Source of the DNA: Thiogranum sp.
GTDB taxonomy: Bacteria > Pseudomonadota > Gammaproteobacteria > DSM-19610
Assembly: GCA_030148805.1 (NCBI GenBank)
Contig: JASBSS010000021.1
Location: forward strand, 1 to 36,949
Direction: 5' to 3'
Length of the DNA stretch: 36,949 bases
This document shows positions 148 to 13,383 of the stretch, one piece after another. Position 1 is the first letter of the stretch; each line of letters starts with the position of its first letter. The notes beneath the pieces were generated by a model that searched no databases, was not told where the DNA came from, and worked only from the letters and a program-made list of their open reading frames with translations. Both the position numbers and the translations under genes were made by a program.

Positions 148-149
148 AA

Positions 150-509: not shown

Positions 510-2809
510 TGCCGCGATATTGGCTGGCTGTTGTCGTCTGTCTTTCCAGTGCGGAGGTGCCCGCTTACGAGTTGTCGACCCATGCGCGAATCAGTTACCA
601 AGCCTATCTGGCATCGACCTTTGAAAAAAGTCAGTACCTGTTTGATGGTTTGGGGCTGTCGGATGAGCCGAGTGTGTTCGGTGAAAGCTATATAGACAGC
701 AGCGGTTCGGAAATATTCGTCCGGCGGGCCGACGGGTTTGAGAAAGGGATTATTCAAAACGGTTTAAAGCTAGTGGAGGAAGTATCGACTATAAAGGGCT
801 GGCTCATGCGAGGCGCCATCCGCGAGGACGACGTGCCCATCTTCTTTGGTGACAATCCCCAGGATGATCCCTTTGGTCAGATTTTTCGTGTCGTAAATCA
901 TTTCTACGACCCGATAAAGGACAGACCACTGACGGTGTTGGGTCTGGTGTCCGGCGAGAAAGCCCCCGACTGGGCCATAGGCGCCGCGGACGTCTTCGCC
1001 GACGAGAACAGGGCCGATGGTTTTCGCCGCAACCACTTCACGGTGTTCGACGCGCACGAAGCGCTGTATCGGGCGTTGACGGGGCTGAGCGGCGGGGGCA
1101 GCGCGGCGATCGGGGAAGGGGGCGCGACGCCGGCGACGCCGGTGGCCCGGGAGGCGCTGCGCAAGGCCTATTGGGCGACGACCTTCCGCGCGCTGGGCGA
1201 TCTGGTGCACCTGATCCAGGACATGGCGCAGCCGCAGCACACGCGCAACGACGCGCACGCCGGCAGCGACGACTACACGCAGCCGGCGGGCCCCATCGGG
1301 CACAAAAGCTTTTACGAGGGCTACATCGACGAGCGCGCCCGCACGGGCGCGGCCGACAACTCCAACGGCAGTCGCCGCGGCCTGCGCCCGCTGGTGTATG
1401 GTGGTTATCCGGTGCCGGCATTCAACGATTACGTGTCCTATTTCAGTGTGCGGCACAAACTGGCCGCCGTGGGCGCACGCACGGGCTTGGCGGATTACTC
1501 CAACCGCGGATTTTTTTCGGTGGGCAAGAACCTGGGGCAGGGCGAGTACGACCTGCCGCCGAATACGCTGGCCGCTTATTCGCCCCAGCCGCGGGTGATC
1601 GACAGCCGGGGCAACAGCGTCGACCTGCTCTACGGCACGGTTTCCGATGCCTTCACCGGGGCCAGCGACACCGTGCCGCTGACCACCTGGGGTGCCTGGA
1701 ACGAGGCGGCCCAGACTTATGGTGTCGGCGAGCGTTTCAGTCTCATCCGCGAAAACTACGACGCCATGGCCGACCTGCTGATCCCGCGCGCGGTGGCCTA
1801 CTCGGCCGGTCTGATCAACCGCTTCTTCCGGGGGCGGCTGGAGATCTCGCCGCCCGACGAAGGGGTCTACGCGATCGTCGACCACGCGCTCACCAACGGC
1901 GTGGACGACGGCTTCACCAGGCTGAAGCTCAAGCTGCGCAATGCCACCCCGGATGTTGACGACGGCCAGGCGACCTATCCCCAGGCGATGACGGCCGGCA
2001 CGCTGCGCGCGGTGGCGAAGTACCGTCGCAACGGCTGTTACCAGCCGGATCTTTCCGGCGAACCGGGGTTGACCAGCTGCGATCTCAGTGCCAACCGGAC
2101 CACCTACGAGGAGGTGGCCGTCTCGCAGAGCGTGACGGTGGCCAGCCTGAGTGCGACCCAGCCGCAGGCGTTCAGTTTCGATTTCTCGGCCAACCCCATT
2201 CCGCTGAACGCCACCGATCTGTATTTGCAAGTGGTCTACCGGGGCGGGCTGGGCAGCGAAGCCGACGCAGTGGTGGTGGCCACCCGCGATATCGCCGAAC
2301 CGACCTACCTGTCGCTGGCCAATTACACCGATTACTACCTGCTCGATGGCGTTTTCTACAGGCCGCAGACCATTCTCGATACGCCTTCGTTGTTCAAGCG
2401 TATCGACAGCGACCGCGACGGCCAGTACAACCCAGCGATCGACGTAAATATCGATCCGCTCACCCTGGCCTACGTTGTCAACTTCGGCGGTCCGACAGTC
2501 GCCACGCTCAGTGTGCCGCCGGCGCGTTTCTCCCGTTTCGCCTTTTTGGTGGACGGCCCGAGCGTCAGTGTCAATATTCTCAAGCAGAGTTTCGGTTACT
2601 GGATCTCGCCGAGCATAAACACCAACCGGTTCCAGTTCGATCCCGCGACGGGCACGGTCAAGAGCAAGGGCTTCGGCAGCAGTCGCGGCTTCAACTGGCA
2701 GGTCAATTTCCCCGACTGGAAATGGCTGGGCTCTACCAGCCAGGGCGATACCTCGACCCTGGCCGATCTGGCCGACCCGACACCGGTACCTGTTCAACTC
2801 GATTTCTGA
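506..2809 (+). CDS. Secreted zinc-dependent phospholipase C / S1-P1 nuclease-fold protein
   Basis: This 767-residue protein begins with a hydrophobic signal peptide (about residues 1-20) and should be exported. Residues 26-250 carry the hallmarks of the bacterial Zn-dependent phospholipase C fold: His26 in S-T-H-A-R-I-S, the acidic G-A-I-R-E-D-D segment (103-109), N-H-F-Y-D-P (131-136), and the metal-binding L-V-H-L-I-Q-D-M-A-Q-P-Q-H-T-R-N-D (233-249). Members of this fold use three zinc ions to hydrolyse phosphodiesters. The remaining 480 residues are beta-rich, with no domain I can name; they could be a carbohydrate- or membrane-binding extension. An AGGAGA ribosome site precedes the first of two tandem ATGs, and the gene overlaps the preceding ORF by four bases. 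The substrate (phospholipid or nucleic acid) cannot be told from sequence alone. Confidence 0.7.
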   Translation: MMPRYWLAVVVCLSSAEVPAYELSTHARISYQAYLASTFEKSQYLFDGLGLSDEPSVFGESYIDSSGSEIFVRRADGFEKGIIQNGLKLVEEVSTIKGWLMRGAIREDDVPIFFGDNPQDDPFGQIFRVVNHFYDPIKDRPLTVLGLVSGEKAPDWAIGAADVFADENRADGFRRNHFTVFDAHEALYRALTGLSGGGSAAIGEGGATPATPVAREALRKAYWATTFRALGDLVHLIQDMAQPQHTRNDAHAGSDDYTQPAGPIGHKSFYEGYIDERARTGAADNSNGSRRGLRPLVYGGYPVPAFNDYVSYFSVRHKLAAVGARTGLADYSNRGFFSVGKNLGQGEYDLPPNTLAAYSPQPRVIDSRGNSVDLLYGTVSDAFTGASDTVPLTTWGAWNEAAQTYGVGERFSLIRENYDAMADLLIPRAVAYSAGLINRFFRGRLEISPPDEGVYAIVDHALTNGVDDGFTRLKLKLRNATPDVDDGQATYPQAMTAGTLRAVAKYRRNGCYQPDLSGEPGLTSCDLSANRTTYEEVAVSQSVTVASLSATQPQAFSFDFSANPIPLNATDLYLQVVYRGGLGSEADAVVVATRDIAEPTYLSLANYTDYYLLDGVFYRPQTILDTPSLFKRIDSDRDGQYNPAIDVNIDPLTLAYVVNFGGPTVATLSVPPARFSRFAFLVDGPSVSVNILKQSFGYWISPSINTNRFQFDPATGTVKSKGFGSSRGFNWQVNFPDWKWLGSTSQGDTSTLADLADPTPVPVQLDF

Positions 2810-2836
2810 CATTGCCCACAGGGAGGCGAGGTTCCT

Positions 2837-3358
2837 ATGCTGCAAACCCAGCGCAAGCGTGTTGACCCCTTCGGACTGTTCCTGGCGCTGACGCTGCTGG
2901 GTGTGGCGCCGGGTTCGCCCGGGGCGCCGCCGGCACAGGAAAGCGCGGCGGTGATTGCGCAGCGTGCCAGCATGCAGCGCCTGCACAACGCGGTGCGTAG
3001 CGGCGATCGGGAGGCGGTATTGGCGATTCTGGCCAGCGGGGTCGAGGTCAACCAGACCGAGGCGCTGCGGCTGGCGGTGCTGGCGCGACGGGTCGACCTG
3101 GTGGATCTGCTGCTGGCCCAGGGCGCCGACATCGACCGCGCGGGCCTGCAGGGCGAGCCGCCGGCGCTGACCGCCTTTCGCGACGGGCGTATCGATATGA
3201 TGAAACACCTGATAGACAAGGGCGCGGACATCAACCGGCCCGACACGCGCGGCCGGACCCTGTTGCAGCACGCCACCCGGCGTGGCGGTGATCCGAAGCT
3301 GATCGACTATCTGCGCGCCCACGGCGCCCGGCCCGGGGTTGAACGGCGCCGGCCCTGA
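2837..3358 (+). CDS. Ankyrin-repeat protein with N-terminal signal or anchor
   Basis: The 173-residue product starts with a basic stretch and a hydrophobic segment (F-G-L-F-L-A-L-T-L-L-G-V-A, residues 12-24), then A/P-rich sequence, consistent with export or an uncleaved anchor. From residue 48 it contains three to four ankyrin-type repeats: L-H-N-A-V-R-S-G-D with A-I-L-A-S-G-V-E-V-N, then L-L-L-A-Q-G-A-D-I-D, H-L-I-D-K-G-A-D-I-N, and T-L-L-Q-H-A-T-R-R-G-G-D. Ankyrin repeats mediate protein-protein binding. It lies 27 bp after the phospholipase-like gene with a GGAGG ribosome site and probably belongs to the same transcript. Small periplasmic ankyrin proteins next to secreted enzymes sometimes act as partners or inhibitors; here that is inference. 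Confidence 0.75.
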   Translation: MLQTQRKRVDPFGLFLALTLLGVAPGSPGAPPAQESAAVIAQRASMQRLHNAVRSGDREAVLAILASGVEVNQTEALRLAVLARRVDLVDLLLAQGADIDRAGLQGEPPALTAFRDGRIDMMKHLIDKGADINRPDTRGRTLLQHATRRGGDPKLIDYLRAHGARPGVERRRP

Positions 3359-3369
3359 ACGGCCGTGGT

Positions 3370-3398
3370 TTGCGGTCACTCGGGGGCTCACATACAAT
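3370..3398 (+). promoter_or_regulatory. Probable sigma-70 promoter of tRNA-Thr
   Basis: TTGCGG (3370-3375) and TACAAT (3393-3398) are separated by 17 bp. They are followed by a GC-rich discriminator, with the tRNA starting 24 bases after the -10 box. The layout suits a stable-RNA promoter. The call rests on motif match only. Confidence 0.5.
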
Positions 3399-3421
3399 AC
3401 CGGCTCAGCCCATCGGGTGTC

Positions 3422-3497
3422 GCCGGCGTAGCTCAGTTGGTAGAGCAGCTGACTTGTAATCAGCTGGTCGGGGGTTCAAGTCCTCTCGCCGGCTCCA
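3422..3497 (+). tRNA. tRNA-Thr (anticodon TGT), integration site of the downstream element
   Basis: The 76-nt sequence folds as a complete tRNA. The acceptor arm GCCGGCG pairs with CGCCGGC (3487-3493), followed by discriminator T and encoded CCA (3495-3497). The D arm contains AGCTCAGTTGGTAGAGC and the T arm GGGTTCAAGTCC. The anticodon stem GCTGA/TCAGC encloses loop CTTGTAA with anticodon TGT at 3455-3457, reading ACA codons (Thr). From base 3452 onward the 3' half recurs unchanged at 10799-10844, so the gene has been reconstituted by an integrated element. Confidence 0.97.
3452..3497 (+). repeat. attL: direct repeat inside tRNA-Thr
   Basis: These 46 bp are identical to 10799-10844. The preceding base (G versus C) and the following base (C versus A) differ, so the crossover core is confined to this interval. 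It spans the anticodon loop to the CCA end, a standard target for tyrosine integrases. Confidence 0.92.
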
Positions 3498-3513
3498 CAA
3501 AACGCGCTGATTT

Positions 3514-3552
3514 AAAAGGGCTTTCTAAGAATAGAGAGCCCTTTTCTTTTTT
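3514..3552 (+). terminator. Rho-independent terminator downstream of tRNA-Thr
   Basis: AAAAGGGCT (3514-3522) pairs with AGCCCTTTT (3537-3545), and the run continues as CTTTTTT. It lies 17 bases after the tRNA CCA and is contributed by the integrated element, so the element supplies a new end for the tRNA transcript and shields its own genes. Confidence 0.75.
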
Positions 3553-3556
3553 CTAA

Positions 3557-3777
3557 GGCGCACTCACGGCGCACTTCTGGGCAACAAACAGCGAGAATTT
3601 GCCCCGAAGGCGCATCGGTTCTACCGGGTTCCTGTTAGTGTCTTGCGTCGTTTAGAACAAGTCACTGTAGCATTCTGCTAAGGTTCTTCTTGCGTCAGCC
3701 TCACCTTGATACATTCCCGTGAAGCTCGCTTTTTGTGCCTTGGATGCGCCTCATGTGCGCCACATTATCGTGGCGCA
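3557..3777 (+). promoter_or_regulatory. Cluster of GGCGCA motifs, candidate integrase arm-binding sites (left)
   Basis: GGCGCACT occurs at 3557-3564 and 3568-3575, exactly 11 bp apart. GGCGCA occurs again at 3609-3614. The complement TGCGCC occurs at 3745-3750 and 3756-3761, again 11 bp apart, and GGCGCA at 3772-3777. The same 11-bp-spaced pair is found just inside the other end of the element (10665-10683). One-helical-turn spacing and presence at both ends fit arm-type sites for the integrase, by analogy with lambda-like integrases. The last two motifs also form a TGCGCCAC/GTGGCGCA hairpin (3756-3777) followed by TTTTT, which may instead act as a terminator. Confidence 0.5.
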
Positions 3778-3994
3778 TTTTTAAATATAAATATATTCAT
3801 ATCGTTATACTTATACATCTTCGCATTATTTATGTGTTGTTGCTATTTATCGGGGGTTGCCGTAGTCTGTTTCCCAGCCCTTTGAAACGAACAGGCCGCC
3901 AAGGTGGTGAGACACCCGGGCGGCCCTGACCACTACCCAACCTATGCGGAGGTTCGGCAATGACTGCGACCATGCTACCACTGGAGGCGATGTA

Positions 3995-5113
3995 GTGGCC
4001 TCCATACGCAAGCGGGCCAACAAGGACGGTACCGTTTCCTACCGAGTGGACGTGCGGTTGAAGGGTTTTCCACCGCAGCGTGCGACCTTCGCCAGGCTGA
4101 CGGATGCCAAGCAGTGGGGAAAGAACACCGAGGCGGCGATTAAGGAGAACCGGTACTTCAAGACGGCGGAAGCTCAGAAGCACACTCTGGGCGAGTTGAT
4201 CGATCGATACATCCGGGATGTGCTGCCAACCAAACCCAAGCAGGAGACCGACCAGAAGCAACAACTGGAGTGGTTCAAGGCAGAGATCGGTGATTACACC
4301 CTGGCGGACATCACGCCGGCGAAGATCGTGGAGTGCCGGGATAAGCTGCTTACCCAGGCGTCCGGCAAGACGAAGAAGCCGAGAGCCGCGGCAACGGTCG
4401 TTCGCTACATGGCGGCCCTATCGCATGCTTTCACCATCGCGGTTAATGAATGGGGCTGGCTCGACGATACCCCCATGCGCAAGGTCAAGAAACCTGCGCT
4501 GCCACGAGGGCGCGTCCGCTTTCTGTCCGATGACAGCCAGGCGCCGGACGGCTCGGTGATCGATGGCGAGCGTACCCGTCTGCTGGAGGCCTGTCAGGCA
4601 TCCGCGAACCCCTACCTGTACACCGTGGTGGTGCTCGCGCTGTCCACCGGTATGCGCCAGGGTGAAATCATGGGCCTGACCTGGGACGACGTGGACCTGA
4701 ATCAGGGACGGGCTACTCTCCATGACACCAAGAATGGGGAGAGAAGGGTCGTACCACTGGCAGGGAAGGCGCTGGAACTGCTGAAGGCACACGCCAAGGT
4801 GCGGAGCCTGCAAACGCCGTTGCTGTTCCCTGGTAAGCCCCTGAGGGGCGCAGACGGCAAGGTGACATACAAACCCATGGACCTGCGCGCCCCCTGGAAT
4901 GCGGCCCTGAAGATGGCTGGCCTTGAGGATTTCCGCTTCCATGACCTACGGCACTCCGCGGCCAGCTACCTGGCCATGAACGGAGCCAGTTTGGCCGAAA
5001 TCGCCGAGGTTCTGGGTCACAAAACCTTGCAGATGGTCAAGCGGTACAGCCACCTGTCAGAGGCTCATACCGCTGGCGTGGTGGCGCGTATGAATGCGCG
5101 GGTCTTCGGGTGA
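3995..5113 (+). CDS. int: Tyrosine-type site-specific integrase
   Basis: This 372-residue integrase/recombinase would catalyse integration into and excision from tRNA-Thr. The N-terminal part (S-I-R-K-R-A-N-K-D-G-T-V-S-Y-R-V-D-V-R) is the small arm-binding domain of phage-type integrases. A core-binding SAM-like domain follows at about residues 60-180, then the catalytic domain with Arg in S-T-G-M-R-Q-G-E-I, H-D-L-R-H-S-A (HxxR), L-G-H and the nucleophile Tyr in M-V-K-R-Y-S-H-L. I chose GTG at 3995 because GGAGG lies 7 bases upstream and the conserved N-terminus begins there; an in-frame ATG at 3944 has a poorer context. It overlaps the next gene by four bases (GTGA). The gene appears intact. 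Confidence 0.93.
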   Translation: MASIRKRANKDGTVSYRVDVRLKGFPPQRATFARLTDAKQWGKNTEAAIKENRYFKTAEAQKHTLGELIDRYIRDVLPTKPKQETDQKQQLEWFKAEIGDYTLADITPAKIVECRDKLLTQASGKTKKPRAAATVVRYMAALSHAFTIAVNEWGWLDDTPMRKVKKPALPRGRVRFLSDDSQAPDGSVIDGERTRLLEACQASANPYLYTVVVLALSTGMRQGEIMGLTWDDVDLNQGRATLHDTKNGERRVVPLAGKALELLKAHAKVRSLQTPLLFPGKPLRGADGKVTYKPMDLRAPWNAALKMAGLEDFRFHDLRHSAASYLAMNGASLAEIAEVLGHKTLQMVKRYSHLSEAHTAGVVARMNARVFG

Positions 5114-5970
5114 GCGGTCGCCGCGTGAAAGGCGAGATGGCGGAACCTGCCGGTCAGGATTTCGTCGACCGCATGCGCCAGGAACGGGCACGTTACCTGG
5201 AGAAGCGCGGCAAAGATTTCGGTCGGTCGCTTATAGCCAGAAAGACCGCTATTACACTATTAACTCGACATCGGTTGGAGCTTCGCAATGCTGACCGATT
5301 GACTAAAATCATACAGGCCTTTGTTGTTGGATCGAGGTATACGCGGCGGCGCTCCTCCGGCGCGGCGGGGACTCACAAAAGCGGTCACAAGCACCTTTCG
5401 TCTCTACAACGACATATTGAAGCCATCCACGGTTATTTGTCGCAGCAGGCTATATCAAGCCGTGGTCGCCAACAGCTGTCTGGCCGGGCAAAAAAAGCGT
5501 CCGGCCTTCTTGGCGAAGATCTTTATTGCGTATTGGCTCTAGCCGAACACGGAATCGACGGCGTTGCCCTTCTTGACGACTTAAAGCAACCGAAAAGGCT
5601 GCGGTTAGACTCTTTGAAAAATATAAGCTCGGCGATAAACATCGAGCTGCGGCGAAAGTCGTCAGCTGGAAGGCAAGGGAATGACTCCTTAAAAAGACTA
5701 ATAATTTCGCTTTCGATAATTTTTCGTGAGCAGGATAGGAATTTAACGGCTTACAAGGCCGCCGCTTCTGGCGAACCGAAAGGCGGGTTCTACAGATTCG
5801 TCGAAGACGTGTTGGCCAGTATTGAGCATAAACCGGTAAGTAAGATTGCGTTGCTGAAATCCGTCAAGAGGGCGTTGCCAAAACGTGACCGGCGCAATGA
5901 CGGGAACCATTCTCAGGATCGCAACCGGAGCAAAGGTATCGATCGTCGAGGCTGGGGGTTCGCCGACTGA
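5110..5970 (+). CDS. Unknown protein translationally coupled to the integrase
   Basis: The 286-residue product starts at GTG 5110, overlapping the integrase stop. It is basic and mostly helical by composition, with repeated K/R-rich stretches, a region R-H-I-E-A-I-H-G-Y-L and E-D-L-Y-C-V-L-A-L-A-E-H-G-I-D in the middle, and a strongly charged tail (K-R-D-R-R-N-D). I recognise no family, catalytic motif or membrane segment. Base composition in the second half is more AT-rich than the integrase, suggesting a separate origin. Coupling to int suggests a role in element maintenance or host interaction, but this is only contextual. Confidence 0.6.
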   Translation: MSGRRVKGEMAEPAGQDFVDRMRQERARYLEKRGKDFGRSLIARKTAITLLTRHRLELRNADRLTKIIQAFVVGSRYTRRRSSGAAGTHKSGHKHLSSLQRHIEAIHGYLSQQAISSRGRQQLSGRAKKASGLLGEDLYCVLALAEHGIDGVALLDDLKQPKRLRLDSLKNISSAINIELRRKSSAGRQGNDSLKRLIISLSIIFREQDRNLTAYKAAASGEPKGGFYRFVEDVLASIEHKPVSKIALLKSVKRALPKRDRRNDGNHSQDRNRSKGIDRRGWGFAD

Positions 5971-6064
5971 CGACGATCAAATCATCACCGTCGATGATGA
6001 CCTCTTGCAAAAAATTAGCCGATTCTGGGGTACATGTCGGCCCAGCGATCGTTACGTAGTATGC

Positions 6065-6097
6065 GTATCACCTATTAGCAGCACAGCAAGGTGATAC
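6065..6097 (+). promoter_or_regulatory. 9-bp inverted repeat occluding the alpA ribosome-binding site
   Basis: GTATCACCT (6065-6073) and AGGTGATAC (6089-6097) are perfect complements separated by 15 bases. The right arm contains the AGGTG Shine-Dalgarno sequence, four to eight bases before the ATG at 6101. In RNA the hairpin would hide the ribosome site; in DNA it could be the operator of a dimeric repressor. Both readings point to control of AlpA, the presumed switch for excision. Confidence 0.6.
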
Positions 6098-6100
6098 ACC

Positions 6101-6295
6101 ATGAAGCCATACCTCAGCACCAACGAAGCAGCAACGTTCCTAGGCCTATCACCCCAAACCCTCCAGCGCTGGCGGCTGGAGGGTAAGGGGCCGATGTTCC
6201 ACAAGTTCGGGCGCCGTGCCATGTACGCGGAGGCAGATCTGCAGGGATGGGCCAGTAAGCAGGCCCGAACCTCCACCAACTCACTGACTGACTGA
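6101..6295 (+). CDS. AlpA-family / MerR-type small DNA-binding regulator
   Basis: The 64-residue protein opens with L-S-T-N-E-A-A-T-F-L-G-L-S-P-Q-T-L-Q-R-W-R, a winged helix-turn-helix of the AlpA/HTH_17 type, followed by G-P-M-F-H-K-F-G-R-R-A-M-Y and D-L-Q-G-W, the wing and the conserved Trp of this family. Such proteins act in P4-like prophages and PICIs as activators of integrase or as excisionases. Its start lies directly behind the inverted repeat at 6065-6097. It is the first of a compact run of genes (alpA, HTH protein, 36-aa ORF, Toprim protein) that probably form one transcript. Confidence 0.85.
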   Translation: MKPYLSTNEAATFLGLSPQTLQRWRLEGKGPMFHKFGRRAMYAEADLQGWASKQARTSTNSLTD

Positions 6296-6312
6296 TTGAG
6301 GGTGGATTACCT

Positions 6313-6510
6313 ATGACAATCCCGACCCTTTTGACACTCAAACAGTTCAATCAGAAGCACCCGGCATTCCCCGTTGGCGGTCTTCGTCACCACATCTTCA
6401 ACGAGAGCCGGAACGGCATGAAGGAAGCCGGTGTCATCGTCCGTAATGGCCGGCGCATCCTGATCAACGAAGACAAGTTCTTCGCCTGGCTGGAGTTGAG
6501 GAACGCATGA
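6313..6510 (+). CDS. Small phage-type DNA-binding protein
   Basis: The 65-residue product begins T-L-L-T-L-K-Q-F-N-Q-K-H-P-A-F and continues G-G-L-R-H-H-I-F-N, N-G-M-K-E-A-G-V-I-V-R-N-G-R-R-I-L-I and F-F-A-W-L. This looks like the excisionase/HTH-like small proteins that accompany AlpA in gammaproteobacterial prophages and satellites: a recognition helix, a beta-wing with R-N-G-R-R, and a terminal W. It begins 17 bp after alpA, with GAGGGTGG upstream. Its stop overlaps the next ATG (ATGA). The precise role (excision factor or replication control) cannot be decided. Confidence 0.65.
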   Translation: MTIPTLLTLKQFNQKHPAFPVGGLRHHIFNESRNGMKEAGVIVRNGRRILINEDKFFAWLELRNA

Positions 6511-6617
6511 TGTCCGGTCGGTTGAAGGCGGCGATCGTCCGGCTTGTGCTATGGGGCCTTCTGCCGGCAGGGGTCGCGGAAGGTCTGCTACGCCTCCTGA
6601 ACCTGCGGGAGGTGTAG
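6507..6617 (+). CDS. 36-residue hydrophobic small protein
   Basis: A short ORF fits exactly between its neighbours. ATG 6507 overlaps the preceding stop (ATGATG/TGA), and the TAG ends at 6617, one base before the GTG start of the Toprim gene at 6619. The product is amphipathic: a basic start (M-M-S-G-R-L-K-A-A-I-V-R-L-V) followed by W-G-L-L-P-A-G-V-A-E-G-L-L-R-L-L-N-L. A GAG-rich ribosome site (TGGAGTTGAGG) precedes it. The tight junctions argue that it is translated. It could be a regulatory peptide, a membrane-active peptide, or a coupling leader for the primase. Confidence 0.5.
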   Translation: MMSGRLKAAIVRLVLWGLLPAGVAEGLLRLLNLREV

Positions 6618-6618
6618 T

Positions 6619-7791
6619 GTGGACCCAGTGACACAATTCGCGCAGGCGATGGCCGGCGCCGGCATTCCCTGCCCACGTATTCCCGTGCCTGATGGCAGGA
6701 TTCATCGTTTCAGCCCTGAAGGCGAACGCGCTGATAACCGGCATGCCTGGTACGTGCTTCACGGCGATGGCATCCCTGCCGGTGCCTTTGGCTCCTGGAA
6801 GACGGGGTATCAGGACACATGGTGCGCTCGTTCGCTAGACAGCCTCAACTCCGAGGAACTGACTGCTCATCAGCGCCGCATGGAGGCGGCCAGGGCGCAG
6901 CGTGAAGAGGAGCGCAAGCGGGCTACTGTCGATGCCGCGGCGAAGGCCCGCCGGATCTGGGAAAGCGCCAAGGCGGAAGATCACCCCTACCTGGTGGCAA
7001 AGCAGGTTCGTGCCCACGGCGTCCGTGTGACGGGGGACAAGCTTATTATTCCGGCCCGCAACCAGGCCGGGCAGATTCAAAGCCTTCAGTTCATCGGTCC
7101 TGACGGCGGGAAGCGGTTCCTACGGGATGGTCTGATCCGAGGGTGTTACCACAGCCTTGGCAAGCTTACGGACACGCTGTATATCGTCGAGGGTTACGCT
7201 ACTGGTGCCAGCATCCACGAGGTAACCGGTTGCGGCGTGGTGGTGGCCTTCAACGCCGGGAACCTTTTGGCCGTCTGTAGAGCAATCCGCAGCAAGTACC
7301 CAGACAAACACCTGACCGTCGCCGCGGACAATGACCGATGGACCGAGGGTAACCCCGGTCTTACCAAGGCCACGGAAGCAGCAAAGGCGATCAAGGCGAA
7401 GCTCTGTTATCCGTCGTTTACGGACATGGACTCGAAGCCTACGGACTTCAACGACCTGTACCGCCTGGAAGGGCTGGGGGCGGTGCGTACGGCCCTGGAG
7501 GCAGCTACTCGGCCAGGCCGCACACGATCCGAGGGTAAGCCCTCGAAGATTGACCGTGTGACGGCTGCCTTGGCTTCAGGAAAGTCGCTCAATCGGTTCG
7601 AGGCAGCGAGACAGATCAACGACCACTGCTTGCATTCCACGGTGTCGGCTATGGAGAAGCGCGGTATTGGAGTTGCGCGGAAGTGGGAAGTCGTCCCCGG
7701 TTACCAAGGTGAACCTACGCGTGTTATGCGCTATTGGCTGGATGAAGAGAACCAGGACAAGGCTCGGCGCATGGTGCCGACGCTGGTGTAA
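6619..7791 (+). CDS. Toprim-domain primase-like replication protein
   Basis: The 390-residue protein has an N-terminal segment containing W-Y-V-L-H-G-D-G-I-P-A-G-A-F-G-S-W, as in phage primases that read a CHC2/DUF3987-like fold. A coiled, K/E/R/A-rich helix follows (about 75-115), then L-I-I-P-A-R-N-Q-A-G-Q-I-Q-S-L-Q-F-I and a Toprim core: L-Y-I-V-E-G-Y-A-T-G-A-S-I-H (catalytic Glu) and T-V-A-A-D-N-D (DxD-type acidic pair), with N-P-G and A-A-K-A. The C-terminal 80 residues form a small domain that could bind DNA. No helicase P-loop is present, so it is a primase-type fragment rather than a P4-alpha-like primase-helicase. GTG 6619 is used; GGGAGG lies 10 bases upstream, inside the preceding ORF. 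It is probably the replication priming protein of the element. Confidence 0.8.
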   Translation: MDPVTQFAQAMAGAGIPCPRIPVPDGRIHRFSPEGERADNRHAWYVLHGDGIPAGAFGSWKTGYQDTWCARSLDSLNSEELTAHQRRMEAARAQREEERKRATVDAAAKARRIWESAKAEDHPYLVAKQVRAHGVRVTGDKLIIPARNQAGQIQSLQFIGPDGGKRFLRDGLIRGCYHSLGKLTDTLYIVEGYATGASIHEVTGCGVVVAFNAGNLLAVCRAIRSKYPDKHLTVAADNDRWTEGNPGLTKATEAAKAIKAKLCYPSFTDMDSKPTDFNDLYRLEGLGAVRTALEAATRPGRTRSEGKPSKIDRVTAALASGKSLNRFEAARQINDHCLHSTVSAMEKRGIGVARKWEVVPGYQGEPTRVMRYWLDEENQDKARRMVPTLV

Positions 7792-7796
7792 CTGCC

Positions 7797-8552
7797 ATGG
7801 CCAAGACGTACTCGAAAGCCAAGGGGCGCCGTGAAAATGGGGCGTTTCACGCAATACCGGTATCGGTGCTCAACCATGCCAACTTTAACAATCTGGGTGC
7901 GCATGCGGTCAAGCTGCTTATGCAGATGGTCGGCAAACTCCGCTACGCCAGGTTTGGCGGAACCCGAAACAATGGTGACCTCAGCGCGGCGTGGTCGGAC
8001 ATGAAGGCGTTGGGGTGGAAGTCAAAACAGACGATCGAGAATGCCAAGAAGGAGCTGCTGTACTACGGCTTTCTGATGATCACCCGCCAAGGTGGGCGAC
8101 ATGTCCCAACCCTCTACGCTATCACTTGGTTGGCCATCGATGATTGCAACGGAAAGCTCGATGTCAGGGCCACCTCAACAGCGCCAAGCAATTGGAAAGA
8201 GCTCAAGCCAGCGGGTGGCTGGAAGCAGGAGCGCGCCGCGAAATGCGCCCCATCAAAAACGAAAACGGTGCCCCGAAAATCGGACTCTATTGACCCGATA
8301 ATCAGGTCAATTGGTGATAAAAGTCAGCCCATTGACCTGATTGTCAGGTCAATAGACGGTGTTTACGGCCCGCCAATTGACCCGATAATCAGGCCCCTTC
8401 TTAGATCTACCATGGGGGGTAGTGCTGGGGCTGCGTGTGGGCGTGGTGCGACGCAGCCCGGCGGCTGCGCTGACGGAGCTTCCGACGCTGCGGAGGACTG
8501 CGAAGAGCGCGTTCTATTCCCGGCTGAGGTACCCAGCAGGATTCGGAGCTAA
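7797..8552 (+). CDS. Replication-initiator-like / winged-helix phage protein with repeat-bearing tail
   Basis: The 251-residue product begins five bases after the primase-like gene. Residues 15-115 form a conserved block seen in phage and satellite replication regions: F-H-A-I-P-V-S-V-L-N-H, L-G-A-H-A-V-K-L-L-M-Q, N-N-G-D-L-S-A-A-W-S-D-M, A-K-K-E-L-L-Y-Y-G-F-L and R-Q-G-G-R-H-V-P-T-L-Y-A-I-T-W. These are consistent with a winged helix that recognises DNA. After about residue 160 the protein becomes low-complexity and contains three copies of the peptide (P)-I-D-x-I-I/V-R, encoded by palindromic DNA repeats (8289-8393). The last 45 residues (G-S-A-G-A-A-C-G-R-G) look like read-through of non-native sequence. 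The initiator role is inferred from position and from the repeats. Confidence 0.6.
   Translation: MAKTYSKAKGRRENGAFHAIPVSVLNHANFNNLGAHAVKLLMQMVGKLRYARFGGTRNNGDLSAAWSDMKALGWKSKQTIENAKKELLYYGFLMITRQGGRHVPTLYAITWLAIDDCNGKLDVRATSTAPSNWKELKPAGGWKQERAAKCAPSKTKTVPRKSDSIDPIIRSIGDKSQPIDLIVRSIDGVYGPPIDPIIRPLLRSTMGGSAGAACGRGATQPGGCADGASDAAEDCEERVLFPAEVPSRIRS
8289..8393 (+). repeat. Three palindromic repeats inside the initiator-like gene, candidate replication origin
   Basis: Three related 23-bp units lie at 8289-8311, 8331-8353 and 8376-8393 (the last lacks its right edge). The middle copy is a perfect palindrome with arms ATTGACCTGA and TCAGGTCAAT around TTG. The first differs by one base in the left arm and has loop TAA. 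Starts are 42 and 45 bp apart, about four helical turns. Spacing preserves the reading frame. Iterated palindromes at the 3' end of a replication gene resemble the rep-adjacent origins of satellites. A peptide-level repeat is the alternative explanation. Confidence 0.6.
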
Positions 8553-8752
8553 TGGACAGGGAGCCCGCAAGATTTGGTACACCCGAACTGCGCAGGCTCC
8601 TAAAGCGCCACTACCTGGAGTGCGATAAGGTGTTCCAGAAGTGGAGGCGCAGGGGCCATCACTACCCACCGCCGCAGCTTCCGCCCTTCCCGGAAGACTG
8701 TCGCGGCATGATGTGCCGACCAGGCGGCGATCCGGGCTGGGTACAGCGCTAA
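8552..8752 (+). CDS. Small protein ending in terminase-derived sequence
   Basis: ATG 8552 overlaps the preceding stop (TAATG). The first 58 residues contain E-L-R-R-L-L-K-R-H-Y-L-E-C-D-K-V-F-Q-K-W-R-R-R-G-like charged sequence and a proline-rich segment. That part resembles the small proteins that precede terminase genes in prophages, but I cannot name it. The last few codons run out of frame through the first terminase small-subunit relic (from 8727), so the native C-terminus was probably lost by fusion. Confidence 0.4.
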   Translation: MDREPARFGTPELRRLLKRHYLECDKVFQKWRRRGHHYPPPQLPPFPEDCRGMMCRPGGDPGWVQR

Positions 8753-8876
8753 GACCGCCAGGAAAACAGCGTCAGAGAACATGACAAAACCTCACATCCG
8801 TGAGCGCATCATGGCCGCCCGGGATGGGGTGGTGGAGAAGGTCAAAGTCGACGCCTGGGTGTCGCTGGCTACCTGA
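8727..8876 (+). pseudogene. Terminase small subunit relic, copy A
   Basis: The frame from 8727 to the TGA at 8874-8876 reads A-I-R-A-G-Y-S-A-K-T-A, then H-I-R-E-R-I-M-A-A-R, V-D-A-W-V. This is the N-terminal helix-turn-helix block of phage terminase small subunits (TerS), which recognise pac/cos sites. The start and the usual preceding N-A-T-Q-A are missing, and the copy ends abruptly in copy B through a frame change near 8861. Confidence 0.65.
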
Positions 8877-9040
8877 AGGACGTCAATGCCACCAAAGCGG
8901 CTGTCAAGGCGAAATTCAGCAGGAAGACAGCCGACAGACAGGGAAGCCGATTGTTGAAGAATGTTGAAGTGGCACAGGCGGTCGCTGAGTGCCTTGCATG
9001 GCACAAGGATCAGCAGAAGGTAGACGCTGCCTGGGTGACG
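8861..9040 (+). pseudogene. Terminase small subunit relic, copy B
   Basis: In a different frame from copy A this segment reads Y-L-K-D-V-N-A-T-K-A-A-V-K-A-K-F-S-R-K-T-A, then G-S-R-L-L-K-N-V-E-V-A-Q-A-V-A-E and K-V-D-A-A-W-V. It is a second TerS N-terminal domain, of a type distinct from A and C (G-S-R-L-L-K-N-V instead of A-Q-N-L-A-K-L-H). It runs out of frame where copy C begins. No start codon or C-terminal oligomerisation domain is visible. Confidence 0.6.
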
Positions 9041-9252
9041 TTGGGCACCTGGAGGACTTCAACGCCACCCAAGCGGCGATTCGGGCTGGGTACAGCGCTA
9101 AGACCGCCAAGGAAATAGCGGCACAGAACTTAGCAAAACTTCACATCCGTGAGCGCATCATGGCTCTCGACACCCTGGAGTTATGGCCGGAGATACCGAC
9201 GCGGTTAGGGGCTAATCGAGCAGGACTGGGAGTACAGCGTTGCCGACGATAA
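8989..9252 (+). pseudogene. Terminase small subunit relic, copy C
   Basis: An ORF of 87 codons contains H-L-E-D-F-N-A-T-Q-A-A-I-R-A-G-Y-S-A-K-T-A-K, then A-Q-N-L-A-K-L-H-I-R-E-R-I-M-A-L-D: an almost canonical TerS DNA-binding domain from about 9046 to 9170. The first 19 codons are copy B sequence in another frame, and the C-terminal half of a normal TerS (usually 150-180 residues) is absent. It could still make a short DNA-binding polypeptide, but no Shine-Dalgarno sequence supports ATG 8989. Its tail overlaps the convergent membrane-protein gene. Confidence 0.6.
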
Positions 9253-9517
9253 GCGCCCAGAGCAGGCCCCACCCAATGACTTTGAGGAGGCCCGGATTAG
9301 AGGTTGCGGATTCTGTGTGGGGGAAAATCTCTGACGCGATCAGAGCCACTACCCCGGCGGGCGCAAGCATTCCGGCGCCTAGTACTGCGGCGAGAAACAG
9401 GTCTCCAGCGTCGCACTGGGTACGCAAGCATGCGGTCTGGTTAGCCAGGAGCCATGTAAGTCCGACCCATGAGAACAATCCCGCAGCCAGCCCTTTGCCT
9501 GTGATCTCGTCCATCAT
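9212..9517 (-). CDS. Small membrane protein (three predicted helices)
   Basis: Reading from ATG 9517 the product is 101 residues: a short polar start (M-M-D-E-I-T-G-K-G) and three hydrophobic stretches at about 10-25 (L-A-A-G-L-F-S-W-V-G-L-T-W-L-L-A), 41-61 (L-F-L-A-A-V-L-G-A-G-M-L-A-P-A-G-V-V-A-L) and 80-98 (V-I-G-W-G-L-L-W-A-L-I-V-G-N-A). A cysteine pair in C-L-R-T-Q-C may be extracellular. The ORF is open further upstream, but the clear membrane protein begins here; the ribosome site is weak. It is the last gene of the minus-strand module. Holin-like or superinfection-exclusion functions are possible by size and topology, without direct evidence. Confidence 0.55.
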   Translation of the reverse strand: MMDEITGKGLAAGLFSWVGLTWLLANQTACLRTQCDAGDLFLAAVLGAGMLAPAGVVALIASEIFPHTESATSNPGLLKVIGWGLLWALIVGNAVLPVLLD

Positions 9518-9633
9518 GCGTTCAACAGTGTCCTCCGCCTCTCTTGGTGCGGCCCAGGCCGACGCACAGGCCGCTGGAGGCGTTTTCGATGAGATGTGCC
9601 AACCCCACAAGGCATACTGTACGCATGAACAGA

Positions 9634-9822
9634 TCAGGGACCAGCTGACGGCTTGTGGATGTCTGCGCAGGCGCGTTTAACCAATCCTGCGGCGCCGCGG
9701 TTATGCGCGTTCCTGATGTTGATCAAGATACACTCGGCGTAGTTATCACCTGGCGTATAGCTATCCTGGCTACAGCCGGCGGCTAGGTATGCCAGCAGCA
9801 GAACTATGCCGCGTAAGGTCAC
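9634..9822 (-). CDS. Small lipoprotein
   Basis: From GTG 9822, with AGAGG five bases upstream, the 62-residue product has a basic start, a hydrophobic core (G-I-V-L-L-L-A-Y) and the lipobox L-A-A-G-C, so it should be lipidated at Cys16 and anchored to a membrane. The mature part, D-N-Y-A-E-C-I-L-I-N-I-R-N-A and R-A-C-A-D-I, has two cysteines spaced like those of small phage/plasmid lipoproteins that end in a C-x20-C helix pair. Its start overlaps the stop of the zinc-ribbon gene by four bases, so it is cotranslated with it. Function unknown; entry exclusion is one possibility. Confidence 0.65.
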   Translation of the reverse strand: MTLRGIVLLLAYLAAGCSQDSYTPGDNYAECILINIRNAHNRGAAGLVKRACADIHKPSAGP

Positions 9823-10043
9823 TCGTACCTCTTGGCGAAGAGCGGCACTTCCGGGGATGTCCGCCACTGGTGGCCGCAGGAACGGCAAGACCATTCAGGA
9901 TTATCAGCGAAGATGTCACACCCACCCAAGACAACCTTCCCGCTTTGAGATTCGTCCAGCAGTTCCTGGGATGGGTATCCGTAGACAATGGGGATTACCA
10001 GTTCTGATCTACACTCCGGGCAAGGTTCGTCGAACTTGCTCAT
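9819..10043 (-). CDS. Zinc-ribbon small protein
   Basis: The 74-residue product starts M-S-K-F-D-E-P-C-P-E-C and ends W-S-C-R-S-C-G-H-Q-W-R. These two CxxC pairs form a probable zinc ribbon, with I-P-I-V-Y-G-Y-P-S and G-K-V-V-L-G-G-C-D-I between them. The pattern CPEC, then IVYG.P, then VVLGGC, then CxxCGH.W is one I know from widespread small hypothetical proteins without an assigned role. It lies two bases after the upstream gene and overlaps the lipoprotein start (GTGA-type), so the three are an operon. Confidence 0.7.
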   Translation of the reverse strand: MSKFDEPCPECRSELVIPIVYGYPSQELLDESQSGKVVLGGCDIFADNPEWSCRSCGHQWRTSPEVPLFAKRYE

Positions 10044-10045
10044 CG

Positions 10046-10276
10046 TCAGAAATCCGCCCCATCGGTCAGACCGTTCGGTTTCGACATCGCTTCCTCGAGC
10101 TCCTTCAGCTCCTCCCACTCGGGCACCGGTGATCCTTTCTTCAAAGCTCGCGATGCTATCTCCTCCACCTTGCCACTGTACGCCCGATAAGCCGGCGCCG
10201 GTATCGAATCCGGCCCGAAGCGCTCGACGTATCGCATGATCGCGGTCGGTGACTGTGGTCGCGGTATTGAGGCCAT
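10046..10276 (-). CDS. Small unknown protein, first gene of the minus-strand module
   Basis: The 76-residue acidic protein contains P-T-A-I-M-R-Y-V-E-R-F-G-P-D, an S-G-K-V-E-E-I-A helix and W-E-E-L-K-E-L-E-E-A-M-S. The ATG at 10276 is preceded by GGAAGG. No catalytic or metal motif is visible. It begins a compact minus-strand run of four genes, transcribed away from the plus-strand gene at 10423, so the 146 bp between them should hold divergent promoters. Confidence 0.6.
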   Translation of the reverse strand: MASIPRPQSPTAIMRYVERFGPDSIPAPAYRAYSGKVEEIASRALKKGSPVPEWEELKELEEAMSKPNGLTDGADF

Positions 10277-10422
10277 TGTTACCTTCCTCCATCAGTGCGC
10301 CGGTCAATGAGTGTAGCAAACCGTAGGCTGTTGTTGGTAGCGGTGGAGTGTTATTGTCGGTAGCGCCATGGCCTGCTGGGTTGATGGCGCTCGCATCCGT
10401 AAAACGACAGGAAGGAGTTCTC
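10277..10422. promoter_or_regulatory. Divergent control region with a GGTAGCG repeat
   Basis: This 146-bp gap separates the minus-strand module from the plus-strand gene at 10423. It contains two imperfect copies of a TGTT-rich motif ending GGTAGCG (10336-10342 and 10359-10365), 23 bp apart. They could be regulator-binding sites. I see no convincing -35/-10 pair. Confidence 0.3.
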
Positions 10423-10641
10423 ATGAAAACTGAAAACGTCATCGATCTAAACAGTGATTCGACAATCGAAAAATTAAAGATTCAACACGATATTGAGTTG
10501 ATTCGTGGCACCCTGGATCTGATCGCCATGCTAAATGAAGCCGATAGTCTCGATACCCTGGAGAACGGCACCATCCTGGGGGTATGCTTGGGAGCTATCA
10601 ATCGGCTGAACGAGATAGAGGAGGCAGTCGAGCGGCTATGA
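10423..10641 (+). CDS. Small helical protein of unknown function
   Basis: From ATG 10423 (AGGAAGGAG upstream, a strong ribosome site) the product is 72 residues: M-K-T-E-N-V-I-D-L, then I-E-K-L-K-I-Q-H-D-I-E-L-I-R-G-T-L-D-L-I-A-M-L and A-I-N-R-L-N-E-I-E-E-A-V-E-R. Two amphipathic helices suggest a helical hairpin or dimer, resembling small phage regulatory or structural accessory proteins. It is the last gene before attR and is intact. Confidence 0.6.
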   Translation: MKTENVIDLNSDSTIEKLKIQHDIELIRGTLDLIAMLNEADSLDTLENGTILGVCLGAINRLNEIEEAVERL

Positions 10642-10664
10642 AGTATCCAGTTGGCGGACTTCAT

Positions 10665-10683
10665 GGCGCACTGGTGGCGCACC
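10665..10683 (+). promoter_or_regulatory. GGCGCAC pair, candidate integrase arm-binding sites (right)
   Basis: GGCGCACT (10665-10672) and GGCGCACC (10676-10683) are 11 bp apart and 116 bp inside attR. They have the same orientation and spacing as the pair at 3557-3575 inside attL. Confidence 0.5.
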
Positions 10684-10798
10684 TGCGTACAAGAAATGGC
10701 CATAAGAGGCGACAGTCTGCGACAAGACCGCTCGTGTAAGTCTTCAACTTTATTGCTGTAGTTTGCTGTCGGAAGTTGCCGATTACGGGCTTCGCGGC

Positions 10799-10844
10799 AC
10801 TTGTAATCAGCTGGTCGGGGGTTCAAGTCCTCTCGCCGGCTCCA
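10799..10844 (+). repeat. attR: duplicated 3' half of tRNA-Thr
   Basis: A perfect 46-bp copy of tRNA positions 3452-3497, including the anticodon loop, T arm and CCA. There is no matching 5' half, so it is not a tRNA gene. It marks the right end of the integrated element. Confidence 0.92.
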
Positions 10845-11278
10845 ATCAAATACTGAGTGATGCAATAGCGACTGCTTTTTATCCCCGTTTTCTGTGGCTG
10901 TGTAGCCAAAATTCAGCAAGGAACCGCCCCGTTCAGGCTCATTCGCCGCTGGGCCAGAGACCGCTGACGGACGTACTCACAGCGCCGGGTTCACTGGTCC
11001 TTTCCAAGTACCGCCACCCTCTTTGTAAGCACTTATCGAATCCACCATTAGCTGGCGCAGCCTATCGCGACGGCGAGTGGGCAATGGGGTGCTGACATTG
11101 GCCAGGTGGCATAAGGATTTCAACAGGAGAGACATTCTACGAACTAAAGCACCGCTCAATGCAGCAATGAGCCTTGGAAAGGTTACCGATGACGACTCTG
11201 ATAGCCAACCGGCGGCCGGGCTTGAAAACTGTCGCCAAACGACTACACTACGTTCATAACTATACCACGGAGGGAGTC
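10845..11278. other. Non-coding stretch to the right of attR
   Basis: About 430 bp with no ORF I can support. A TTG-started extension of the next gene into this region (from 11174) is possible but lacks a ribosome site. Nothing resembles the sequence normally found immediately downstream of a tRNA operon. It may be the decayed end of an older insertion. Confidence 0.3.
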
Positions 11279-11710
11279 ATGATAATCCAAGGCGATGACC
11301 CGGATTTCCACAGTGTGTACTGGTATCCTCCTGATAAAACTGAACTTAATGCTAAGGCACAGACATGCTGCTCATGTTTCAGAAGCATTTGTCGGGGTGA
11401 CGATATAGCCGAATTCCGGCGCACCCGGTGGCCCAAGAACTCCCTGGAAATCCTCATATACGGCTGGTCGGCAGAGTCGGTTAGGGTGCGTTCGCTCTAC
11501 CATTGCGCCGATTGCTGGGCCCTGTTTTTGGCGTTAACGGAAATCGGAGCGGAGCCATCGCCAGTAGATGACCTCAAAGGGATGGTCAGCGACTATATGG
11601 ATACACCCCCTGCCATCAAGATTAAACCATACACTCGGCGACAGCAGCCAGAACAAGGCAAGCGTCCGGCAGACCGTCAAGCCAAGCATACCCAAACCCA
11701 GCTAACGTAG
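11279..11710 (+). CDS. Cysteine-rich (zinc-finger-like) protein of phage or mobile-element type
   Basis: From ATG 11279 (GGAGGG five bases upstream) the product is 143 residues. It carries A-Q-T-C-C-S-C-F-R-S-I-C-R-G-D near residue 25 and Y-H-C-A-D-C-W-A-L-F near residue 75. These paired cysteines could bind one zinc ion in a treble-clef or ribbon. The C-terminus is hydrophilic (R-R-Q-Q-P-E-Q-G-K-R-P). Similar short cysteine-pair proteins are common in prophages. It lies outside the 46-bp repeats, between attR and ispG, so it is either from an earlier element or a remnant of a longer one. Function unknown. Confidence 0.55.
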   Translation: MIIQGDDPDFHSVYWYPPDKTELNAKAQTCCSCFRSICRGDDIAEFRRTRWPKNSLEILIYGWSAESVRVRSLYHCADCWALFLALTEIGAEPSPVDDLKGMVSDYMDTPPAIKIKPYTRRQQPEQGKRPADRQAKHTQTQLT

Positions 11711-11781
11711 AGAGTGCCAGGCGCACCTCCTTTATGGATTATTGCCCACAGCCCCGGCGTGCCTGAGCCTTTATTCCGCCT

Positions 11782-13041
11782 TTAGCCGTAGGTATTCTGC
11801 ACGTAAGCGTCGACCAGTTGCTGAAAGTCCTCGGCGATGCGCTCGCCTTTCAGCGTCACCGTTTTCTCGCCATCGACATACACCGGCGCCACCGGCCGCT
11901 CGCCGGTCCCGGGCAGGCTGATGCCGATGTTGGCGTGTTTGCTCTCGCCCGGGCCGTTGACCACGCAGCCCATCACCGCCACGGTCATGTTCTCCACCCC
12001 GGGATAGCGGCTGTGCCACTGTGGCATCTGGGCGCGCAGGTACTGCTGGATGTCCTGCGCCAGTTTCTGGAAATAATCGCTCGAGGTGCGACCGCAACCG
12101 GGGCAGGCGACCACGCTCGGGGTGAACGAGCGCAGGCCCATCGCTTGCAGGATCTCCTGGGCCACGATGACTTCCTGGGTGCGGCTGCCGCCGGGCTCGG
12201 GGGTGAGTGAAATCCGGATGGTGTCGCCGATGCCCTGCTGCAGCAGGATCGCCAGCGCGGCGCTGGAGGCGACGATGCCCTTGGCGCCCATGCCGGCCTC
12301 GGTCAGCCCCAGGTGCAGGGCGTAGTCGCACTGCGCGGCCAGGCTGCGATAGACGGCGACCAGGTCCTGCACGCCGCTCATCTTCACCGACAGGATGATC
12401 CGGTCGCCGCCCAGGCCCAGCTCCTGCGCGCGGCGGGCGCTTTCCAGCGCCGAGAGGATCATCGCCTGATGGATGACCACCCGGCTGTCGGCCGGTTCGG
12501 CGCGGCGCTGGTTCTCGTCCATCAGGCGCACCACCAGCTCCTGATCCAGGCTGCCCCAGTTGACGCCGATGCGCACCGCCTTGTCGTAACGGCAGGCCGT
12601 CTCGATCATGCTGGCGTAGTGTTCGTCGCGCTTCTTGCCGCGCCCGACATTGCCGGGGTTGATGCGGTACTTGGCCAGGGTCTCGGCGCAGGCCGGGTGC
12701 TTGGCCAGCAGTTTATGGCCGTTGAAATGGAAGTCGCCGACCAGCGGCACATCGAGGTTGCGGGCATCCAGCCGCTCGCGGATCCGCGGCACGGCGGCGG
12801 CGGCTTCGTCGCTGTTGACGGTGATGCGCACCAGCTCGGAACCGGCCTGTGCCAGCTGCGCCACCTGGCGGGTGGTGGCCTCGATGTCGGCGGTGTCGGT
12901 GTTGGTCATCGACTGCACCACGATCGGCGCGTTGCCACCGACCAGCACGTGGCCGACGCGCACGGCCCGGGTCTGGTGGCGGGTGACAGGGGTCATAGGG
13001 CTGGTCATGGACGGATCGTTGAAGTTCTGCCAGGCGCCCAT
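11782..13041 (-). CDS. ispG: 4-hydroxy-3-methylbut-2-en-1-yl diphosphate synthase IspG
   Basis: This 419-residue enzyme performs the penultimate step of the MEP isoprenoid pathway, reducing MEcPP to HMBPP with a [4Fe-4S] cluster. The N-terminal TIM barrel shows [20 protein letters not shown] and L-G-L-T-E-A-G-M. The C-terminal domain has A-C-P-G-C-G-R-T and [11 protein letters not shown], giving the C-x2-C...C ligands and the conserved Glu. It is of the longer, flavodoxin-type bacterial form with an insert after [10 protein letters not shown] chose ATG 13041 (AGGA eight bases upstream); ATG 13008 and 12996 are alternatives, and the open frame upstream to 13239 is not conserved. It is transcribed toward the tRNA element and divergent from the ExeA-like gene. 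Confidence 0.95.
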
Positions 13042-13383
13042 GATAGTCGTCCTGCCGCCGGGGCGGAAGGCGCTGGCGGTTTTCCCCCTGAGCTTGCAGG
13101 GTAGCTCCGTGCGTGAACTTTTCTGTCTCCTGGCTATCCATCGAATATTCAGTAATAACATGGTGTTATAGATGGGTCCGAGGGCCGGAAGGGGTCTCTT
13201 GGGCAGGTCGGCGACACCGAGGGAACCAACTCGCGGCAAGCAACGTGTTATATCTAATGTGAATTCGCCCTGTCCCGGAATGCGCTAGGCTGTGTGATAT
13301 AGTCCAATGACGAATCCTGCTCACAAGGAAAAGAACAGGCCAGGAATCGACGAGGGAGCGCTCGATAATGTACGAGAGAGTCT

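Follow-up and report, generated by a model that had tools for sequence, protein, structure and literature searches.

The stretch of DNA analysed here, which we call the window, comprises positions 1 to 36,949 of contig JASBSS010000021.1 of Thiogranum sp. (assembly GCA_030148805.1; 36,949 bp), and the element in question is ~7.35 kb long and lies in it at a tRNA-Thr gene. We interpret this element, with a probability of roughly 0.7, as a small, partly decayed phage satellite that would be transferred by a helper phage. This reading is based on an exact flanking repeat together with empty and occupied sites in sister species, on remnants of a terminase small subunit (TerS) gene, on a link to phiAH14b, and on the common backbone and partial virion genes of elements with a related Rep protein. 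The integrase, AlpA-like and Toprim primase genes named in a preliminary description of the window are all real as judged by Pfam and PHROGs matches, and the features that carry the argument are as follows.

3422–3497, + strand: tRNA-Thr(TGT), found with ARAGORN; its last 46 bases (3452–3497) are attL
3944–5113, + strand: tyrosine integrase, given as the longest open reading frame (ORF) (Pfam Phage_integrase, 6.8e-34)
5110–5970, + strand: 286-aa protein with a GTG start, overlapping the int stop by 4 nt
6101–6295, + strand: AlpA-like/excisionase-like helix-turn-helix protein (HTH_17, 1.7e-12; phrog_66 excisionase, 1.8e-9)
6313–6510, + strand: small 65-aa ORF with weak excisionase-like matches only
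6619–7791, + strand: Toprim primase without helicase, with a C-terminal HTH_39 domain (Toprim_3, 5.3e-12; phrog_2249, 8e-82)
7797–8552, + strand: Rep (P0003), putative small winged-helix initiator, whose reading frame runs on through the iterons
8289–8398, no strand: palindromic iteron array inside the 3′ coding part of rep, predicted replication origin
8709–9162, + strand: three tandem truncated TerS N-domain remnants (Terminase_2 model)
10799–10844, + strand: attR, an exact copy of the 3′ end of tRNA-Thr

The perfect 46-bp repeat of the tRNA reported in the preliminary description at a distance of 7.3 kb was confirmed, as the copies at 3452–3497 and 10799–10844 are identical and lie 7347 bp apart from start to start, and when the tRNA was searched against the 3.78-Mb assembly no further match covered all 46 bp at 100%. 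With the tRNA and its upstream flank as the query, we searched 17 genomes of the genus, our own included, for an empty site, the check that had been proposed for close relatives. In one sister species (L078, G379) the tRNA-Thr site is empty, and the next gene, ~15 bp past the tRNA, is the counterpart of the window gene beginning near 11780, which we take to be IspG. In two other sister species the site is occupied, in L077 (G378) by a 13.2-kb element with the same 46-bp repeat and an integrase 85% identical to that of the window, and in L080 (G377) by a 7.9-kb element whose repeat copies are 89% and whose integrase is 83% identical to those of the window. The exact repeat and these occupied and empty sites support the claim of a complete att-delimited element. 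At E ≤ 1e-60 the window integrase was matched in 4 of the 16 remaining genomes of the genus, two of the matches being >80% identical; the start given here, 3944, follows from taking the longest ORF, and sibling integrases begin at residue 18. Besides the integrase, the only window protein matched in the L077 and L080 elements was the small ORF at 6313–6510, which is kept in both (47% and 73%) and has a counterpart close to Rep in L056 (56%). Where the window has a Toprim primase and Rep, the L077 element has a DUF3987 replication-type gene and the L080 element one of DUF927 type that matches Toprim weakly. Between attR and the next chromosomal gene the window has ~935 bp (10845–11780), with a 178-aa ORF at 11174–11710, that are absent from the empty site of L078; thus the right flank of the element is not simply the empty site, and this stretch may have been left by an earlier insertion.

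The preliminary description had also listed a TerS gene, and here an intact gene was rejected, as only N-domain fragments remain. The pieces at 8709–8852 (with one TGA), 8864–9040 and 9049–9162 match only positions 10–68 of the 141-position Terminase_2 model, and the assembly has no such match outside the element. Three tandem copies of the TerS N-terminal domain suggest a duplication before or during decay. The claimed absence of virion structural genes held among the element ORFs scanned with Pfam, PHROGs and NCBIfam, with 10046–10276 and 10348–10641 outside these scans. Everything from int through the TerS remnants is on the + strand, and the ORFs at 9212–10276 are on the − strand. TerS pieces and a phage-type primase would also be left in a degraded prophage, i.e. 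a former temperate phage whose structural block is gone and of which integrase, AlpA, primase, Rep and pieces of the terminase survive. We consider such an origin quite unlikely, because the scanned ORFs contain no virion structural gene and the assembly no PF05065 or PF04860 match, and because the elements of 7.9 and 13.2 kb at the same site in sister species have other interiors.

The phage satellite reading is linked to a studied system by the primase, which matches 118 phage records with phiAH14b (KU708005, from Pseudomonas sp. ANT_H14) first by coverage times identity (42% identical). In the text available from PMC4936722, phiAH14b is described as induced with a 55-kb helper and packaged in the capsids of that helper, the two are termed a putative helper-satellite system, and the authors report that they found no phiAH14b terminase. 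The annotated order of phiAH14b (integrase, hypothetical gene, AlpA, small genes, topoisomerase-primase, helicase) resembles the order of integrase, hypothetical gene, AlpA and Toprim primase in the window, and, like the window element, phiAH14b has iterons at its replication genes, six CTGTTCCCC copies at 9300–9511, 3′ of the helicase gene. Moreover, the C-terminal HTH_39 tail of the window primase matches a second phiAH14b region directly after AlpA (43%). Unlike the window element, phiAH14b is 16.8 kb long, has a separate helicase and encodes HTH_39 apart from its primase, and it lacks both a Rep of the window family and, at E ≤ 1e-3, a match to the integrase.

Rep, which had been called ‘replication-like’, showed no significant match in the three family scans, and the initiator reading is supported by the iteron array in its 3′ coding part. 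This array has ATTGACC/GGTCAAT half-sites at 8289, 8305, 8331, 8347 and 8376, and in a 400-bp scan 8289–8398 was the sole site in the element with at least four copies of a 7-mer. An AlphaFold2 model of Rep made from 34 sequences was confident over most of residues 21–150, and a Foldseek search with it returned plasmid replication initiators in the first six rows (best E 0.031, none <0.001), while a profile search with Rep gave one plasmid initiator (RepA_N) at E 0.0095; the Pfam scan of Rep did not name RepA_N. Fold and profile thus point weakly to a RepA_N-type initiator, and these similarities, each weak alone, taken together with the iterons support a role as a putative iteron-binding initiator. 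In the accessible parts of the sources, the origin of pSK41 also lies within rep (PMC5703833), and the RepA of PLE (PICI-like element) satellites binds three semi-palindromic iterons (PMC8263062). Rep of the window is like these in its predicted winged-helix fold and predicted binding of semi-palindromic iterons, whereas Rep is ~150 aa in many relatives and the iteron steps are ~43–45 bp. The resemblance to RepA_N plasmid initiators would suit a non-phage integrative island, in which a plasmid-like replicon with an integrase is moved by conjugation helpers, natural transformation or general transduction; we regard this as rather unlikely, and, as far as described in PMC8263062, PLE satellites too have RepA_N initiators with iteron origins.

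At E ≤ 1e-5, 14 of the 368 other genomes searched in the class contain a relative of Rep. A total of 92 Rep loci was used, 80 from genome_contigs (the best 80 of 85), some of which are places already among the class-genome matches, and 12 from viral_contigs, a set in which scans with a single protein (primase, Rep or tape measure) were unproductive. Judged by record titles and general taxonomy, most hosts are Beta- or Gammaproteobacteria, with metagenome-assembled genomes labelled Thermodesulfobacteriota and Verrucomicrobiaceae as exceptions. Matches to Rep are rare outside these sets, with 2 in 50,697 phage records and 1 in 72,556 plasmid records. A co-directional tyrosine integrase lies upstream of rep in 71 of the 92 loci, at a median distance of 1632 bp, and in 48 of these 71 a local profile placed an AlpA-like ORF between int and rep. 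A same-strand tRNA or tmRNA gene is found just upstream of int in 41 of the 71 and at the far repeat in another 6, compared with 0 of 46 control windows 5 kb upstream, and att repeats (exact, and either at least 15 bp at a tRNA/tmRNA or at least 22 bp) lie 3.9–12.6 kb apart in 16. In addition, 14 of 90 loci have an HTH_39-like ORF ahead of rep. Two short att-delimited Rep elements, of 3.9 kb at tRNA-Val in Inhella gelatinilytica (L162, 7385–11287) and of 4.3 kb at tRNA-His in Nitrosospira sp. (L108, 761–5056), are possible minimal replicons of the group. In Pseudomonas phage vB_Pae_U1 (L044, 3747–4290; PP003913.1; 16.2 kb), deposited as a phage, the genes run int, cox, Rep, primase, the 3′ end of rep carries GGTACAGAA iterons, and neither capsid nor terminase is annotated. 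This record is like the window in its Rep (36% identical over the N part) and in the position of its iterons, it is longer and has different cargo (Rhs), and it may itself be a satellite.

We then surveyed iterons across these loci, reduced by grouping the 92 Reps into 78 clusters at 80% identity (75 loci testable) and requiring at least three copies of an 8-mer with p ≤ 0.02 against Markov shuffles. By this criterion, 39 of the 75 non-redundant loci have an array at the 3′ end of rep. The control windows gave 2 of 199, namely 2 of 59 at the 3′ end of int and none in 75 upstream of rep or in 65 three kb downstream. Among 95 spacings <100 bp, 38 are 42–46 bp and many others are 21–22, 32–33 or 52–54 bp, with strong helical phase at 10.7 bp (R 0.70) that persists when the 42–46-bp class is left out (R 0.63, n = 57). 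Iteron words differ between elements, and L119 and L108, with the two closest Reps of the tested set (58% and 53%), have 6 and 7 of 8 letters as in the word of the window. In 30 loci selected for a 43–45-bp pair, the array is followed by an AT-rich peak.

In the att-delimited relatives, families were tallied for 139 of 193 ORFs of at least 80 aa from 21 elements (those omitted were nearly all integrases, Reps or <100 aa), the tallies giving the 25 commonest families per scan. Among the families so listed, PHROGs had major head, head protease, tape-measure and TerS with two members each, Pfam had Phage_capsid twice, and PADLOC had Gabija and type I restriction, which by ORF size and order we place in L057 and L155, respectively. 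In single loci, a protease–major capsid protein (MCP) fusion stands next to a tape measure in L094 (11046–15992), L098 has an MCP, L116 has TerS, protease and tape measure (10962–15561), L164 (12729–14783) and L171 (7886–9304) have tape measures, L053 has a capsid gene, and L129 (Nitrosospira multiformis Nl7) has a portal gene; a 351-aa protein downstream of this portal (14842–15897) matches tail fibre and central tail fibre J families. Tape-measure proteins are known in PLE satellites and putative tmp genes in capsid-forming PICIs, according to the text seen of PMC12987554; they were thus rejected as a new discovery, and the tape-measure genes of the relatives are used as support only.

The 11.2-kb contig L172 (IMGVR_UViG_3300042904_000283, 1–11200) has a 125-bp terminal overlap (99.2%), is permuted relative to L173 and L129, has no tRNA gene, and has, from its right end to int, 15-bp words in common with the att sequences at the two ends of the L129 element; it apparently represents a circular genome of 11.1 kb. 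Read as a circle it has int, AlpA-like and HTH_39-like genes (assigned by our own alignment), Rep with iterons, MCP, protease, portal (assigned by DNA similarity to L129), a 665-aa tape measure and HNH, and no remaining ORF >240 aa could be the terminase large subunit (TerL). L172 reads as a circle without a TerL candidate, so a genome can be stable with only part of the structural genes. The preliminary description had held that structural genes in the same element elsewhere would mark it as a degraded prophage. Such genes do occur, and TerL and capsid genes stand on the contigs of some Rep relatives, as expected for a prophage; however, in the att-delimited or circular cases they are partial sets in satellite-sized elements and not shrunken whole prophages. 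A prophage origin also fits poorly with the 3.9–12.6-kb size of the att-delimited relatives (16/71 loci), with the circular L172, and with the rarity of Rep in phage records, one of the two matching records being the 16.2-kb vB_Pae_U1 without annotated capsid or terminase. Defence cargo such as Gabija and type I restriction would suit the integrative island, whereas TerS remnants and head or tail genes of the relatives point to phage particles, and no relaxase was named in the general scans of the element (two small ORFs were outside them). The relatives’ partial virion genes and phiAH14b support the ‘phage-satellite-like’ label of the preliminary description.

Part of what had been called unknown cargo, the 286-aa protein at 5110–5970, occupies the position of the integrase-overlapping gene of phage-inducible chromosomal minimalist islands (PICMIs) and has no family match in the three scans. 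A short stretch at its C terminus resembles the ORF next to int in sibling L080; as a family marker the protein was rejected, with matches in 0 of 273 other genomes, and a plasmid search with it was unproductive. A same-strand ORF of at least 100 aa adjoins int in 49 of 66 relatives, and overlap with int as a general trait was rejected, since only 11 of the 66 have an overlapping start, 8 of them by 4 nt. In L077 the overlapping slot holds a protein with PF20109 and PF10074, which we take to be DUF6499 and DUF2285. By the account in PMC10359603, proteins of PF20109/PF10074-type architecture activate excision of integrative and conjugative elements, which is a further point for an integrative island. 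In PICMI115, iolg overlaps int by 4 nt and is needed for excision, with alpA, primase and small genes also present, and such an overlapping gene is reported for 21 of 35 PICMI subfamilies (PMC10803314, in the part available). By analogy, we infer that the slot may hold an excision partner or activator.

As described in that source (PMC10803314), PICMIs of Vibrionaceae are like the window element in having int, a 4-nt int-overlapping gene, AlpA, a small gene and primase, ~6 kb of length and no capsid genes, and HTH_17 is one of its models. They differ in integrating at fis with a DUF3987/DUF5906 primase, whereas the window has tRNA-Thr, a Toprim_3/HTH_39 primase only, a separate Rep with iterons, and TerS remnants. 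Full PICMI membership was rejected because of this site and primase, although sibling L077 does have DUF3987, and the element is most likely like a phage-inducible chromosomal island (PICI) and not a PICMI. Gram-negative PICIs share int, alpA, primase/rep, iterons 3′ of rep, an optional terS and mostly one gene direction, as far as set out in PMC6092414; in the window, terS is in fragments and the Rep family has no named model. The PICI composition claimed earlier is thus retained for the specific attachment site with its own integrase and for the iteron origin, which PICIs have immediately 3′ of the initiator and the window inside the rep 3′ end, and not for terS, which is only a remnant. As for genes unshared with other mobile elements, Rep is rare in phage and plasmid records and the primase is common to phages. 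Capsid or packaging genes of its own, as in capsid-forming PICIs, are lacking among the scanned ORFs of the window element and present in several Rep relatives. P4-like satellites have psu/delta/sid and an alpha primase-helicase. No P4-type family was named in the three scans of the element, and no dedicated search was made.

In the mechanism that we propose, a helper phage or AlpA would trigger Int-driven excision, with AlpA and the overlapping gene taking part. Rep would bind the iterons in its own 3′ coding region and open the neighbouring DNA, a host or helper helicase would be recruited by Rep, and the Toprim primase would prime synthesis to give circles or concatemers, which a helper phage would package. 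The element may formerly have supplied its own TerS; because this is now in fragments, packaging today would depend on the helper's terminase.

Several observations weigh against the satellite interpretation. No transfer, excision or helper was seen for the window copy, its TerS is broken and its right end is without a recognised gene. A resident helper of HK97 type was rejected because the assembly has no Phage_capsid (PF05065), Phage_portal (PF04860) or further Terminase_2 match; other helper types were not searched. Full-size phages, Xanthomonas phages among them, match the primase at E-values equal to those of phiAH14b, so that the primase link to phiAH14b alone is not specific. Among the Rep loci, 21 of 92 are without a detected upstream integrase, att repeats are limited to 16 of 71, several of just 16–18 bp, TerL is found on the contigs of L168, L169 and L177, and L177/L178, on 32–39-kb contigs, may be prophages. 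The iteron test failed in 36 of the 75 non-redundant loci, no convincing array was seen in L047, L050, L054, L056, L058 and L059 of a first series, L077 and L080 have no iterons after their helicase-type genes, and the AT-rich peaks come from a chosen set. The link between Rep and iteron similarity is weak (Mantel rho 0.12, with 21 of 2000 permutations as high) in a set of 35 of 48 iteron loci plus the window, 13 having been dropped by hand for irregular spacing or near-duplication. Finally, the VIA-align Z of 7.1 to RepA_N is tied with unrelated winged helices.

The remaining ORFs of the element are:

8552–8752, + strand: 66-aa ORF, no match
9212–9610, − strand: 132-aa ORF, no match
9634–9894, − strand: 86-aa ORF, no match
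10348–10641, + strand: 97-aa ORF, from the ORF list

Elsewhere in the same genome (L060, G000:C30:330001-350000), 5704–18264 is a second att-delimited element, with a 46-bp repeat of the tRNA-Phe 3′ end in copies 12.5 kb apart; its integrase is 37% identical to that of the window, and it also has a second integrase and AAA, BpsA_C, Fic and DUF6933 proteins.

The window element could then be a reduced member of an undescribed satellite lineage of Beta- and Gammaproteobacteria, a proposal to which we give an even chance. Such a lineage would be unified by a small RepA_N-like initiator whose gene carries, at its 3′ end, an iteron origin in helical phase, and not by integration site or cargo. Iterons would change with the initiator to give many origin types, packaging genes (none, TerS, a capsid set or tape measure) and defence cargo would be swapped behind this module, and the replication module itself would be swapped between sister species at the tRNA-Thr site. 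No recognisable description or name of such a Rep-based lineage was found in the open-licence full-text literature. If the proposal is correct, one protein without a named family model would locate satellites in Nitrosospira, Gallionella, Woeseia, Marinobacter and Rhodanobacter, and minimal and capsid-carrying satellites would be joined by one replication backbone. It would also provide a testable origin code, i.e. which Rep fires which iteron set, and would raise the question of whether phages attack such origins as ICP1 does PLE origins in the account given in PMC8263062.

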